Origin: a virus
Reading direction: 5' to 3' (one strand)
IMG/VR virus record: IMGVR_UViG_3300042290_000454
Coordinates: 1-47,090 of that record
Length of the DNA stretch: 47,090 nucleotides
Shown here in pieces: positions 4,765-37,972 of the stretch (the first letter of the stretch is position 1; every line of letters begins with the position of its first letter). The notes beneath the pieces were generated by a model, which was not told the DNA's origin, made no database searches, and saw only the letters and a list, made by a program, of their open reading frames with translations. The position numbers and the translations under genes were made by a program.

Positions 4765-6291
4765 GTGCCTTCTCATCTTCACTTAGCTTATCGACGTAAC
4801 GCTCAAGCTGCAGTTAAGAATCACAAGGTACGCAAACATAAGAACGAAGAGCTGTTACAAAGAGCCCGTGAAGATTTTGGATTCTTTTGTGACTACGTAG
4901 CAGATAAAGCTCCGGCTCCTCACCATAAACAGTGGCATCGTCACTTTGTAACTGGCCAGGATAGTAGCTGCTTGGTTGGAATTGCTGGACCCAATATTGA
5001 TTTACTTGCCCCCAGGGGTAGTGCCAAAAGTACAGTCCTGGGCTTGTTTACGGCATGGGCAATTGGTGTTCACACAACAGCCAAGAAACCCCTGCAGATT
5101 CTTTACCTCTCCTACACGGTTGATATTGCACGTTCCAAGTCTGCAACCATCAAACGGATTATTGACAGCAAGCGATATCAAGAAGTTTTTCCGACAGTCA
5201 AACTGCTCAAGAACGTAACTAGTAATGAGTACTGGTCTATTGACCACAAGTTTGCCGGCATTGATGTTACCGGTGATGAACAATTTACTTTGTGCGCAGC
5301 AGGTCTAAAAGGTTCTGTGACCTCCAAGCGTAGTCACCTGATCTGTATTGATGACCCAACTAAAAGTGCGGCAGACATCTCCAACCCAGACATCAGGAAG
5401 ATGATGGAGGATAACTGGAACGCAGTTATTGCTCCCACGATGTTTGAGGGTGGGCGAGCAATTTGCCTTGGAACCCGATTCCGCCATGATGACATTCACG
5501 CCACCACATTCAACGAACAAAATAACTGGACACAAATTGTTCTTTCCGCAATTCAAGCAAATTCCAAAACAGGTGAAGAAGAATCTTATTGGCCTGAGAT
5601 GTGGTCACTGGATTACTTAAAGGAAAAGAAACGGCAAGCGCCTATTGCCTTTTCGTTCCAGTACATGAACAGGATTGTTCGCCAAAGCGAGCTGTCGCTG
5701 TCTCCTGAACTTTTGATCAAAGCTGAGATTGCAACTGAGTTTGACGCCCTTGGCGTAGGGGTTGATCTATCTGCTGGAACTAAAGAGAAAAATGATTACA
5801 CCGTATTTGTGCTTGGTGGCCGCATTGGTGATTGTATTCACATTATTGATTATCGGCGCATGCGCGTCATGGGCAACCTGGAAAAACTGGATGAATTAAA
5901 AGAACTTCTCAATGACTGGTGCATTGTTGGCCGCGATGAGCAGGGCAATTACTTCCCAACGTATTCAACATGTGATGTATGGTCTGAAGCCGTGCAGTAC
6001 CAGGCATCTTTGGAGGCTGACTTCAAGCGTGTTTGCTTAAATGGCGATGGCCTTTTTAATTTAATTTGGCACCCTGTCAAAGGATTCCGTGCAGACAAAC
6101 TGGCACGTTTCAGAGGCATCATGGGTCTGTTTGAAGACCGTAAAATCATCTTCAACAAATATCGTAATTTCGACACAATGTTCGAAGAGCTTACTAACTT
6201 TGGTGTAAGTGGACACGATGACTGTGTCGATTCGCTCGTCTGGTTGGTTAACGGTCTAGCCAAAAAGAGCAACCTTCAATTTGATTACTAA
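4765..6291 (+). CDS. terL: Large terminase subunit (DNA packaging ATPase/nuclease)
   Basis: 508 residues, usual length for the family. The N-terminal ATPase shows a Walker A-type loop LLAPRGSAKST (residues 80-90) and Walker B LICIDD (192-197). The C-terminal RNase H-like nuclease shows an acidic strand VGVDLSAG (Asp334), a second Asp at 344 and the late acidic cluster GHDDCVDSLVWLV near residue 486, as in TerL nucleases. It would cut concatemeric DNA and pump it into the prohead through the portal encoded at 7294. The start is GTG 4765, just after a hairpin; no strong Shine-Dalgarno is seen. No small terminase was identified. Confidence 0.92.
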   Translation: MPSHLHLAYRRNAQAAVKNHKVRKHKNEELLQRAREDFGFFCDYVADKAPAPHHKQWHRHFVTGQDSSCLVGIAGPNIDLLAPRGSAKSTVLGLFTAWAIGVHTTAKKPLQILYLSYTVDIARSKSATIKRIIDSKRYQEVFPTVKLLKNVTSNEYWSIDHKFAGIDVTGDEQFTLCAAGLKGSVTSKRSHLICIDDPTKSAADISNPDIRKMMEDNWNAVIAPTMFEGGRAICLGTRFRHDDIHATTFNEQNNWTQIVLSAIQANSKTGEEESYWPEMWSLDYLKEKKRQAPIAFSFQYMNRIVRQSELSLSPELLIKAEIATEFDALGVGVDLSAGTKEKNDYTVFVLGGRIGDCIHIIDYRRMRVMGNLEKLDELKELLNDWCIVGRDEQGNYFPTYSTCDVWSEAVQYQASLEADFKRVCLNGDGLFNLIWHPVKGFRADKLARFRGIMGLFEDRKIIFNKYRNFDTMFEELTNFGVSGHDDCVDSLVWLVNGLAKKSNLQFDY

Positions 6292-10622: not shown

Positions 10623-11789
10623 GTGTTTCTTGATACCGATTTCCCAAAAATCTTGGGTGCGGAACTTTACCGTCCCCACCCTGCTTATATTGCCGAGATG
10701 GCAGTGGAGCCCGTGGTTGTTCACGACTTCACCCGCCAGCCCGGTCAAACCGTTCAGTTAGACCGCTACAAGTTCTGGGGTACCCCTGGTACTAAGGACA
10801 GCCGTGAGCGTATTGCCGACCAAACGATCGGTACCGCTAACAGCCGTAACATCACCAAGGAGAAAGTCCTGGTGGTGCTTAAGGAATACACCGGTCCTGC
10901 AGACCCGGGTGATCCTACCCAGCCCTCGACCTTCAAGATTGCTCGTGAAACCCTGATTACCGCCCAGCGTCTGCTGCTGGACACCGGTAACCTGAACATG
11001 TTCCACCAGTCCATCGGTAGCCTGACGCTGCTGGATGACTACCGTCGTTGGCGCGACCGCGTGTTCATTGATGAACTCGCCAAAGCCGAAGCCAATGGTG
11101 CCGCTTCCACCACCCAAGGTGGTTACTACTTCGCTGGTGGCAAGGTCAAGGATTCTTCCGGCCGCATTGCCTACACCTCTACCGAGTATGGCAACGAAGT
11201 TCAACAGTTCCAGGTGCGTACCGACCTGCTGAACGTTGTTAAGGACCTGCGCAAGCGCAACGTTCCTACCTATGCCGATGGTCTGTATCGCTGCATCTGC
11301 GATCCTACCTTCATGATGCACCTGCGTCGTGACCCCGACTTCCGTGAGATTGCCCGTTATGCTGGCAACCCCGGTCAGGGCATGTACATGGGCAACCCCG
11401 GCATGCCCAACAACGCCAGCTTCTACATGGGTCCCCAAGCTGGTCAGGGCTACTTCCTGGCTGGTGAGCCTGTGATGCCGACTGGTGTGCAGTTTGAAGG
11501 TGTCAAGTTCTTCGAGTCGACCAACTTCCCGACCAAGAACGTCAACACTTCTTTCGACGGCACCGGTGGTACCTACGCTTCCAAGGAAGTGGCTCAGGGT
11601 TATTTCTTCGGTCCTCAAGCTATTGGCGTGGGTATCGGCGGCCCGAACGCTCAGGTGCTCATCAACAACAACGATGACTTCAGCCGTTTCATCATCCTGA
11701 TTTGGCAACTGTACGCCGGCTTCGAAATCCTGAACAAGGACTTCGTGACCACCGCGTTCAGCTATGTACAAGACGACGGCACCATCTGA
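10623..11789 (+). CDS. Major capsid protein (candidate, HK97-type)
   Basis: 388 residues, typical for HK97-fold capsid proteins. It starts at GTG 10623 with GGAGG about 10 bases upstream. Evidence is position after the scaffold-like gene, its own leader with a hairpin, and strong codon bias toward C-ending codons (ACC, AAC, GTC, CTG) unlike most neighbours, expected for the most abundant virion protein. The sequence has an N-terminal arm, a central region with RRWRDRVFIDELAKAEANGA (spine-helix-like) and Gly-rich loops near 255-300. I cannot see a delta-domain protease site. Assignment rests on context more than motif. Confidence 0.82.
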   Translation: MFLDTDFPKILGAELYRPHPAYIAEMAVEPVVVHDFTRQPGQTVQLDRYKFWGTPGTKDSRERIADQTIGTANSRNITKEKVLVVLKEYTGPADPGDPTQPSTFKIARETLITAQRLLLDTGNLNMFHQSIGSLTLLDDYRRWRDRVFIDELAKAEANGAASTTQGGYYFAGGKVKDSSGRIAYTSTEYGNEVQQFQVRTDLLNVVKDLRKRNVPTYADGLYRCICDPTFMMHLRRDPDFREIARYAGNPGQGMYMGNPGMPNNASFYMGPQAGQGYFLAGEPVMPTGVQFEGVKFFESTNFPTKNVNTSFDGTGGTYASKEVAQGYFFGPQAIGVGIGGPNAQVLINNNDDFSRFIILIWQLYAGFEILNKDFVTTAFSYVQDDGTI

Positions 11790-13119: not shown

Positions 13120-13135
13120 GTCTTAAAATACAAGC

Positions 13136-13828
13136 ATGGCAAAGATTACGCGGATAGGTCAGCTCGGTTCCTCTGGTGTTTCCAGTGGCCCGCATTTACA
13201 TGCATATGTAAAAAACCTTGTTACTGGCGAGTACGAAAACCCTGAATATCATCGCAGTAAATTTACAGGCGTACGAGTGGGTGCCAACAGGGTGCCTAAG
13301 TACATCACAGATAGCAAAGGGGAATTGATCTTAAACCCTGCAGCAGGTTTAACAAAGACTTCTTCTTGGGGGCCACGTAACACAGGCATCCCTGGCGCAA
13401 GTACATACCATAGGGGTGTTGATTATGGCGGTCAGGAGGGCACGGAGATTTACGTCGAAGGTGATGTCAAGTTCACCCCGCGTCCCAATGCAGGAGGCTA
13501 CGGGAATCTGGCTACCTGGACCACAGGAGACAATAAGTACGAACTTGGTTACGGCCACATGAAAACGCTTGGTGAGGCAACCGATCTCACCAATACAAGC
13601 GTGGCGGCAACTCCTCGTGTTTCATACGAAGAAGCCCAAGGCAAAACAAATGATTTGATTGAAGCTTTTATGCTTGGCACTAATTATCAGCCACGCGAGA
13701 AGAAGCAAACAAGAGAGCCTCAATCATTACTGGGTGCGTTTAAAAGTCAAATATTGGGCGGGATTCTTCAGAACGCAATGAATCCTCTTGCGGGGATCCT
13801 AGATCAGCCCGGTGACACTGTCGCTTGA
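13136..13828 (+). CDS. M23-type metallopeptidase with circularly permuted motif order
   Basis: 230 residues. All the M23 (LytM/lysostaphin) hallmarks are present but in a rotated order. The segment normally at the C-terminal end of the domain, GSSGVSSGPHLHAYV (HLH at residues 20-22), comes first. The normally first motif, YHRGVDYGG (His92, Asp96), comes in the middle, followed by GGYGN (120-124) and GYGH (His141). Zinc ligands His92, Asp96 and His22 plus His141 would then complete one active site. M23 enzymes cut peptide cross-bridges of peptidoglycan; here it is probably a virion-associated lysin. Residues 150-230 are linker and a helix. The gene follows a terminator, with TTAAAATA upstream as a possible -10. 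Confidence 0.78.
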   Translation: MAKITRIGQLGSSGVSSGPHLHAYVKNLVTGEYENPEYHRSKFTGVRVGANRVPKYITDSKGELILNPAAGLTKTSSWGPRNTGIPGASTYHRGVDYGGQEGTEIYVEGDVKFTPRPNAGGYGNLATWTTGDNKYELGYGHMKTLGEATDLTNTSVAATPRVSYEEAQGKTNDLIEAFMLGTNYQPREKKQTREPQSLLGAFKSQILGGILQNAMNPLAGILDQPGDTVA

Positions 13829-15514: not shown

Positions 15515-16177
15515 ATGTCATTGAATCCCGCCGCCGCTATTGTTGCTCGCAAGTTAAAGCAACAAGGTTATAGCAACGCACAGATTGCAGGCGTCCTTGG
15601 TAATATCTCCCAAGAGTCTGGCTTTAATCCCCGTGTAAACGAGGGTGGCGCTGTTGGCGGGCCTATGGGACGTGGCGGGTATGGGTTAGCACAGTGGACG
15701 GGAAGCCGTCAGACTGACCTTGTTAATTTTGCAAAAAATAGAAAGCTTGACCCAGGTGATGCCGGATTGCAAGCCGACTTTTTATTGCATGAATTACAAG
15801 GACCTGAAAGCCGTGCTGCCGAATCTTTACGCAAAGCACAATCACCTGAGCAAGCTGCTTTAGTTTTTCGTCGCGATTTTGAACGTGCCGGTATCCCCAA
15901 GGATGAGAACCGGATGCGTGCAGCTCGTGATGTACTGCCTAAGCTGCAGACTCTAGAAGGCGGGATTGATTTTGCACCTCCAGCTCTCCCTGGTGAGAAG
16001 CAAAGTGTTGCTTACCGTTTAGCAGCGGCAGGCATTGATCTCACTGGTGGCCAAGAAGAAGATCAAAGCACGACTGCTAATACACTGCTTGAGGCGTTTA
16101 AGCAACAAGTAATTCCCACGATACTTCCGCAAGGTATTATGGGTATTGGTGCAGTCAGTCCGTTCCAGGTGTACTAA
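15515..16177 (+). CDS. Phage tail-type lysozyme
   Basis: 220 residues with AAGGAG about 9 bases before the ATG. Residues 8-130 fit the phage tail lysozyme family: QIAGVLGNISQESGFNPRVN with the expected catalytic-type Glu34, then GGYGLAQWTGSRQTDL, then a helical part QADFLLHELQGPESRAA and AALVFRRDFERAG. Such enzymes open peptidoglycan locally during infection. The C-terminal 70 residues are a Gly/Pro linker and helix. Together with the M23 protein it suggests a virion armed with two cell-wall enzymes. Confidence 0.85.
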   Translation: MSLNPAAAIVARKLKQQGYSNAQIAGVLGNISQESGFNPRVNEGGAVGGPMGRGGYGLAQWTGSRQTDLVNFAKNRKLDPGDAGLQADFLLHELQGPESRAAESLRKAQSPEQAALVFRRDFERAGIPKDENRMRAARDVLPKLQTLEGGIDFAPPALPGEKQSVAYRLAAAGIDLTGGQEEDQSTTANTLLEAFKQQVIPTILPQGIMGIGAVSPFQVY

Positions 16178-24325: not shown

Positions 24326-25000
24326 ATGACCGATTACACGTCTGCAATTAATTTAATTTGCAAGCATGAGGGCTTTAACGAGAAAGCCTACGCTGATCCA
24401 AGCACAGGTGGAGAACCGTACACTATTGGATATGGCACACAGTTTTATCCTGATGGATCTCCAGTGAAACGAGGCCATCTATGCAGCAAAGAAAAGGCGC
24501 TTGAATATTTGTTTCACGAAGTAGATGTTATTGATACACAACTGTCTAAGCTCAATATTGGCATTAGTAATTCTGTTAGGCAAGCTTTGATTTCATTCAT
24601 CCATTCTGTTGGGTGGGAGTCTTTTTTCTACAGTAGCATTGTTGACAACCTGGAACACGAAGACCTACAGGAAGTTACAGAAGAAATGACCAGGTGGGTT
24701 TTTGATGTTGATCATCAAGTTGTTGGCAGTCTTCTTGATAGGCGCCGAGAAGAAACCAATTTGTTGCTTCGGGACACCGATGCATTTATCCAGCCTTGTG
24801 CACAGATTTTGCTGGCGGCATTCCGCGTTTACTCTGGGGCTGCACACGAATTACAAGCTATTAAGCACCTGGAAGAAAGCCTGAATCCTTATGTGCTGTC
24901 CAAGTTTGCAAATGAGTTTAGGGTCAGCGAAAAACCCTGGGACTCTTGCAGTTCTGATGAATACGGCCCCGATGATTTCAACACTGTCTTTGACAGGTAG
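24326..25000 (+). CDS. Phage lysozyme, GH24 family (endolysin)
   Basis: 224 residues. The N-terminal 150 residues match T4-type lysozymes: HEGFNEKAYADPSTGGEPYTIGYGT contains the catalytic triad as Glu15, Asp24 and Thr33 (residues 14-38), with a later SLLDRRREETNLL segment typical of the family. It hydrolyses the glycan strand of peptidoglycan at the end of infection. The extra C-terminal 70 residues are helical and of unknown role. No holin was clearly identified next to it. Confidence 0.9.
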   Translation: MTDYTSAINLICKHEGFNEKAYADPSTGGEPYTIGYGTQFYPDGSPVKRGHLCSKEKALEYLFHEVDVIDTQLSKLNIGISNSVRQALISFIHSVGWESFFYSSIVDNLEHEDLQEVTEEMTRWVFDVDHQVVGSLLDRRREETNLLLRDTDAFIQPCAQILLAAFRVYSGAAHELQAIKHLEESLNPYVLSKFANEFRVSEKPWDSCSSDEYGPDDFNTVFDR

Positions 25001-36859: not shown

Positions 36860-37972
36860 ATGTCCATAAAACTTGTTGAAGCGGCTCGGTACTTCAAGGA
36901 ACAGCCACATCAAATTGATGCGTGGAATTGGCTCCAGGCTCAGATACCCTCTGAGACCCTGGAGTCTTTTGCTATCAAATACCGCACAGCGCCAAAACCT
37001 GTGGAAACCTACCCCAATACTTGGGAAGGTGTGATGAAAGCAGGTAAAGACGCTGGTGCAAAATATCCTGAATGCGTTGCTGCTCAATGGGCACTCGAAT
37101 CAAATTGGGGTAAAGACACCTCGGGTACTCATAACTATTACGGGCTTAAGGGATCTGGCACTACGGTCAACACACAAGAATTCATCAATGGTCAATGGGT
37201 AACAATCAAAGCTGGGTTCATTGATTTCCCCGACCTTTACACCTGCACTTGTTACTTAGTTGACCGCTGGTACAAAGACTACGGCACATACAAAGGTGTG
37301 AACCGTGCAACAAGCAGGAACAACTGTGCACAATTATTAGTTACAGAAGGATACGCTACAGATCCTGGCTACAGCACCAAGCTGATCCAGATAATGGATA
37401 AGCAACTTGGCACGCCAGGAGGTAATACCACTGATGCGACAACATCTAAAACACTGTCTGTACCTTACTTTTATCAGCTTGATAATCAGTCTGGTACGGG
37501 ATATCGCGAGTGTTTTTCTTCGAGTTGCGCCATGGTCGCAGCTTATTATAATTTGGTAAAATCGGACGACGAATACAATAAAATTCGTGCTAAGTACGGA
37601 GACACTACCAATAAAGATGCTCAGCTTGCAGCTTTGCGTTCCCTGGGACTCAAGGCGACATTCATTACCAATGGTAATTCTGCCCTACTAGAAAATGAAA
37701 TTCGCAACGGCAGGCCAGTAGCTGTTGGTTGGTTGCACCAGGGGAGTATCAACTACCCAACTGGTGGTGGACATTGGACTTGCTGCATCGGGTTTACACC
37801 AGATACATTTGTACACAACGATCCAAATGGTGAGGCCGATATGTTAAACGGTGGGTACGTCAGTAATTCTGCTGCACGTGGCAAAGGTGTGAAGTACAGC
37901 AAAAAAAACTGGTTGCGCCGCTGGGAATGCGACGGCAATAATACAGGTTGGGCAATTCTTGTATCAAAGTGA
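36860..37972 (+). CDS. Two-domain cell-wall hydrolase: glucosaminidase plus C39-like peptidase
   Basis: 370 residues. Residues 50-185 are an endo-beta-N-acetylglucosaminidase domain (FlgJ-like): YPECVAAQWALESNWGKDTS with catalytic-type Glu80, then HNYYGLKG and FIDFPDLYTCTCYLVDRWYK. Residues 198-370 are a papain-like C39-type peptidase: VPYFYQLDN, ECFSSSCAMVAAYY with likely nucleophile Cys218, GGHWTCCIGF with His305 and VHNDPNG (Asn320/Asp321). One protein could thus cut both glycan and peptide bonds of peptidoglycan. It adds to the lysozymes at 15515 and 24326 and the M23 protein. Either an endolysin or a virion lysin. Confidence 0.85.
   Translation: MSIKLVEAARYFKEQPHQIDAWNWLQAQIPSETLESFAIKYRTAPKPVETYPNTWEGVMKAGKDAGAKYPECVAAQWALESNWGKDTSGTHNYYGLKGSGTTVNTQEFINGQWVTIKAGFIDFPDLYTCTCYLVDRWYKDYGTYKGVNRATSRNNCAQLLVTEGYATDPGYSTKLIQIMDKQLGTPGGNTTDATTSKTLSVPYFYQLDNQSGTGYRECFSSSCAMVAAYYNLVKSDDEYNKIRAKYGDTTNKDAQLAALRSLGLKATFITNGNSALLENEIRNGRPVAVGWLHQGSINYPTGGGHWTCCIGFTPDTFVHNDPNGEADMLNGGYVSNSAARGKGVKYSKKNWLRRWECDGNNTGWAILVSK

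Follow-up and report, generated by a model that had tools for sequence, protein, structure and literature searches.

A probable circularly permuted M23 peptidase encoded in a phage virion-gene cluster

Introduction

We report a cyanophage gene (ORF 13136-13828, plus strand) that probably encodes a circularly permuted M23/LytM metallopeptidase, working as a virion-associated peptidoglycan endopeptidase. It lies in the 47,090-nt stretch of viral DNA analysed here (IMG/VR record IMGVR_UViG_3300042290_000454, hereafter the window). Zinc geometry, activity, location in the virion and docking through the C-terminal tail are inferred parts of this reading. Few cell-wall enzymes are as well studied as the M23/LytM peptidases; in ordinary members HxxxD is followed by YxH and then by GxHLH, and annotation pipelines assume this single motif order. 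A literature search for permuted M23 or LytM domains returned no description, within an incomplete coverage that left most subscription papers outside.

Precedent comes from circularly permuted NlpC/P60 domains (YaeF-like, LRAT-like; Anantharaman and Aravind 2003, cited in PMC6403190). These are domains of the peptidoglycan-hydrolase type with a swapped order of catalytic residues, but they adopt a cysteine peptidase fold that is unrelated to the M23 zinc fold. If the present reading holds, the M23 fold tolerates new termini in the loop between the YxH and IGxxG strands, partial M23 matches in phage tail proteins are accounted for, and a natural scaffold with different ends becomes available for studies of the M23 domain.

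Motif order and profile matches

ORF calling together with PF01551 places the gene at 13136..13828 (+), an ATG ORF encoding 230 aa plus stop. Along the protein, SSGPHLHAYV (residues 16-25, GPHLH at 18-22) is followed by HRGVD (92-96) and finally by GYGHM (138-142, GYGH at 138-141), with GPHLH, HRGVD and GYGH present in a single copy each. A sequence-only reading of this DNA had given the swapped order with its coordinates and residue numbers, all of which were reproduced when ORF and translation were re-read; its claim that each motif occurs once also held, as a six-frame M23 search of the window left no tandem repeat.

The M23 old C-terminal half comprises residues 4-40 (IGQLGSSGVSSGPHLHAYV...NPE; 13145..13255, +; PF01551 positions 58-89) and contains the HLH motif (13193..13201, +), in which H20 is predicted from conservation to be a catalytic histidine and H22 the third zinc ligand. 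Residues 41-70 (13256..13345, +), delimited from the alignment and the AF2 model, form the new connection from the old C-terminus to the old N-terminus, and G49 and P54 within it are conserved in the alignment of relatives. The old N-terminal half follows at residues 71-146 (TSSWGPR...HRGVD...GYGHM; 13346..13573, +; PF01551 positions 2-55), with the predicted zinc ligands H92 and D96 in HRGVD (13409..13423, +) and the predicted catalytic H141 in GYGH (13547..13558, +), both motif assignments resting on invariance in 49/49 diverse relatives. The chain ends in a C-terminal tail (residues 158-230; 13607..13825, +) with two predicted helices, which is also found in relatives carrying another, peptidase-like module.

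We regard as already refuted the explanation that a frameshift, an assembly error or a wrong start masks a domain of normal order. Upstream of the ATG at 13136 there are just three open codons before a stop, a layout shared with close relatives, and no upstream half is missing. The isolate S-EIV1 and numerous independent contigs show the same order as well, and the canonical M23 profile gave no significant match to a second M23 piece elsewhere in the window in any of the six frames. Homologues that had lost an upstream half would have overturned the permuted reading, as proposed beforehand; none appeared, all family relatives being permuted and the close ones sharing the start. A GC-rich hairpin with a T-run lies between the previous gene and ORF 13136-13828, an arrangement kept in close relatives. 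A tandem M23 duplication with both copies retained is likewise ruled out, since every element is single-copy.

Two separate stretches of the protein are recognised by PF01551 (profile length 96; hmmscan E 1.6e-7, 31.8 bits at a cut-off of 28.7). At the DNA level, profile positions 2-55 fall on 13406-13570 and positions 58-89 on 13121-13216, two complementary segments without overlap and in swapped order. Against the stop-to-stop frame, the canonical M23 profile matched residues 69-148 with E 1.9e-20 and residues 8-39 with E 2.2e-5, and each half was also recognised on its own, the old N-half with 117 bits and the old C-half with 50.4 bits (E 9e-10).

Circular permutation was tested by comparing a canonical M23 profile (73 sequences) with a profile of the permuted family, given either as a single copy or in tandem. 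With a single copy, the alignment of canonical M23 was confined to the old N-half (119.2 bits), while with the tandem copy the alignment ran unbroken across the join over 132 columns (163.4 bits). Column-shuffling of the second copy in 100 trials gave a mean of 118.7 bits (sd 1.4, max 127.9), and duplicating the profile of the canonical family as a control brought no gain (429 -> 422). The protein meets the sequence-based membership criteria of M23, namely profile coverage of both halves, HxxxD (H92, D96) and HxH (H20-L-H22), but not the canonical order HxxxD, YxH, HxH, since HxH comes first. It thus fits M23 in all sequence criteria tested except motif order and is classed as a circularly permuted variant, with closure of the fold and activity inferred.

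Like the established M23/LytM enzymes (PF01551; LytM, lysostaphin, ShyA, MepM), the protein contains HxxxD, YxH-type and GxHxH motifs and covers profile positions 2-55 and 58-89, each once. The difference lies in the swapped halves, in the termini positioned between the YxH and IGxxG strands and in a bridge of ~45 residues. Canonical M23 domains of the cyanomyoviruses S-RIM44 and S-H9-2 closely resemble the protein in the old N-terminal half (e.g. SPFGARNTGIPGASTNHLGVDY), but their motifs run in normal order within proteins of ~725-760 aa, encoded upstream of the baseplate hub gene.

Predicted structure

An AF2 model of the domain (residues 1-157, 49 sequences) yielded one compact and confident domain with a mean pLDDT of 92.9 and a pTM of 0.86. 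The check by AlphaFold that had been proposed from the sequence, in which halves lying far apart would have spoken against permutation, gave this single domain; together with the tandem-profile test and the conservation described below, it supports the initial interpretation as a permuted M23 domain. A first, full-length model (28 sequences, pLDDT 70.8) was weak in the tail and in the second half and was superseded by the domain model. Strands are predicted at residues 4-11, 20-27, 73-76, 95-98, 104-108, 112-116, 124-129 and 135-145. Between the old termini, a bridge of ~45 residues (about 26-72) features a helix (36-43) and short strands (46-48, 56-58, 64-66). The sequence-only reading had assigned a connector to residues 25-85; that it joins the old termini stands, whereas its extent is now refined to about 26-72 and its nature to a structured element, no mere floppy spacer.

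We propose a fold in which the chain would start in the loop separating the old YxH and IGxxG strands and run through the HLH strand, with the structured bridge at about residues 26-72 reconnecting the old termini and the catalytic module ending past the YxH strand, at about residue 146. Folded in this manner, the chain would give an ordinary M23 sheet in which H92, D96 and H22 hold the zinc ion and H20 and H141 are catalytic. That these five residues meet at one zinc site is inferred from their conservation and from their equivalence in sequence to the known motifs.

Sequence order alone cannot distinguish such intramolecular closure from domain swapping, in which the HLH piece would complete the sheet of a neighbouring subunit in a dimer or ring with otherwise normal M23 sites, and oligomeric states are frequent among virion proteins. 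We nevertheless give swapping only a slim chance: the single chain is predicted to be compact and confident (the pTM given above), the bridge between the old termini is conserved and structured, and the same order occurs embedded mid-way in long tape-measure proteins.

A search of a viral structure library with the domain model returned a 1191-aa protein, aligned over 157 columns (TM 0.73, probability 1.00), and a virion protein of S-TIM5 (probability 1.00), full-domain matches which show that the query model works. Entries named M23 or endopeptidase in the same library were aligned over ~90 columns only, as expected when a permuted fold is compared to a normal one by an order-dependent aligner. 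Foldseek searches of the PDB with both AF2 models returned no significant M23 structure, a point against the present reading that we attribute, without proof, to the order dependence of its alignment. The four PDB chains for which an alignment was displayed have the two halves in normal order.

Conservation within S-EIV1-like phages

All 141 family ORFs (141/141) collected from S-EIV1-like phage contigs display the permuted order; this number includes repeats, as some contigs were fetched twice. The viral-contig searches cover the clade of the window (L001-L021), the S-EIV1 clade (L025-L068) and intermediate clades (among L072-L148). Among 50 representatives below 90% identity, reaching down to about 30%, every one is permuted. 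The search of metagenomic cyanophage proteins suggested from the sequence alone has recovered the same order across phage contigs. What had been missed is its spread over several phage groups, together with a clade-dependent position 22, occupied by D in the S-EIV1 clade but by H in the window's clade and the intermediate ones.

Synechococcus phage S-EIV1 itself carries a protein annotated as 'peptidase M23 family' (AHV82231) in the same gene slot and with the same permuted order at 30% identity, in which GAHLD, with Asp at the third zinc position, replaces GPHLH, and LLHT replaces GYGHM. A Pfam search of AHV82231 gave no match at all. Throughout this large clade, for example at L024:5890-6636, Asp replaces the third M23 zinc ligand (GAHLDVRV) while the other catalytic residues are invariant. 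At L109:2539-3708, a GDSL/SGNH hydrolase-like N-terminal domain (weak Pfam match, E 0.03) is fused before the permuted M23 domain.

Selection on the gene was assessed against two close relatives, with dN = 0 at dS 0.38-0.45, indicating strong purifying selection on ORF 13136-13828. These values bear on the explanation that a tandem M23 duplication has decayed and left half-domains behind as inactive structural filler. Circular permutations usually arise when a domain is duplicated and the outer halves are then lost, and a zinc histidine is indeed lost in the relative from phage P60. Against decay stand the lack of any variation at H20, H92, D96 and H141 across the 49 diverse sequences aligned, the absence of nonsynonymous change and the presence of each element exactly once, which leave inactive filler highly improbable and a functional permuted enzyme as the preferred reading.

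Permuted order in other phages

The same order is found in the middle of tape-measure proteins of Moraxellaceae siphophages, where GISG...HL(D/H) is followed after ~40 aa by TSxFGxR...HxGxD...LLH. Carriers are Acinetobacter phage R3177, Moraxella phage Mcat19, a Psychrobacter prophage-like locus and viral contigs. The permuted profile matched R3177, Mcat19, L229, L241 and L218 with E of about 1e-12 to 1e-14 and the standalone protein L243 with E 5e-17, and it gave a weak score for L236. Among these tape measures with permuted M23 domains (L218 from 3585 on, in Psychrobacter coccoides, and L229-L242), some contain HLH and others HLD.

In cyanophages, the S-TIM5 virion structural protein AEZ65701 displays GAHLH, HTGVD and LAHL in that order, as judged by reading. 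The virion-cluster proteins of P60 (L257:870-3872) and S-CBP1 (L258:927-3890) end in a permuted M23-like domain, matches that likewise rest on reading, with weak profile scores. Their zinc motifs are altered to HGID in S-CBP1 and to FGVD in P60, where the histidine of HxGxD is lost, so that activity is doubtful in both. Taking the Asp at the third zinc ligand in the S-EIV1 clade into account together with the lost histidine in P60, some relatives may be inactive.

The cellular M23 genes examined and the phages S-RIM44, S-H9-2 and Vibrio phage Yong show canonical order. Yong had been considered, along with ctEw122, as a permuted candidate, and both were rejected on account of their canonical order. 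Cellular loci that were fetched are canonical wherever the order is readable, with the exception of L218, the prophage-like tape measure from Psychrobacter, which was recognised by reading the sequences. A tree neither demonstrated nor rejected a single origin (AU p 0.29). We put forward only tentatively, and with slightly more doubt than conviction, that permuted M23 domains make up a class of phage virion peptidases that is widespread but has gone unrecognised and that arose by more than one permutation event, spanning S-EIV1-like phages, S-TIM5, T7-like cyanopodoviruses and Moraxellaceae tape measures, with an H/D/D (HLD) zinc site in many of them.

Gene context and C-terminal tail

The window encodes TerL at 4765-6291 and the major head protein at 10623-11789, and ORF 13136-13828 sits in the virion-gene cluster near a Phage_lysozyme2 tail lysozyme (15515..16177, +; PF18013 E 6.4e-36), a probable partner enzyme with a weakly similar C-terminal tail. 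The peptidase and this lysozyme probably act together to open the peptidoglycan locally during infection, a role that is inferred.

It should be noted that the PHROGs profiles matching the protein are mostly named endolysin, and no virion proteomics is at hand, so the permuted M23 enzyme could instead serve in lysis, for exit from the cell, rather than acting from the virion during entry. We regard this as unlikely, given the position among virion genes near the tail lysozyme, the other lytic genes in the window (Phage_lysozyme, starting at 24326, and Glucosaminidase with Peptidase_C39, at 36860) and the relatives in other phages, which belong to tape-measure or virion proteins. An entry enzyme carried in the virion remains the preferred reading.

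In S-EIV1 and others, neighbouring muralytic genes encode tails with detectable similarity to the C-terminal tail of the peptidase; the similarity is weak in the window, where the tail profile scored 13.9 bits against the product of 15515-16177 (reversed: 1.0). A common C-terminal tail on cell-wall enzymes suggests a tag for docking to the virion, a role inferred for the helical tail, which would probably attach the enzyme. At L022 (4581-5234), L063, L065 and L066, in both clades, the whole catalytic module is swapped for another while the C-terminal tail is the same. This exchange supports a modular design, with an exchangeable wall-cutting module on a common tail. The replacement module carries GYHPxGxAIDVRDW...GHDTHVHLAL (H-x6-D...HxH); neither Pfam nor PHROGs nor the PDB provided a family for it, and by its motif only it would be M15-like.

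Muralytic genes with C-terminal tails resembling that of the peptidase lie a few genes downstream of the peptidase at 15515-16177 in the window, at L024:8239-8898, and from L092:5452 and L100:5225 on. Further along the window, the gene at 36860-37972 fuses the Glucosaminidase domain to a C39-like papain-fold peptidase (Peptidase_C39, phrog_10051) and is probably a lysis or tail enzyme.
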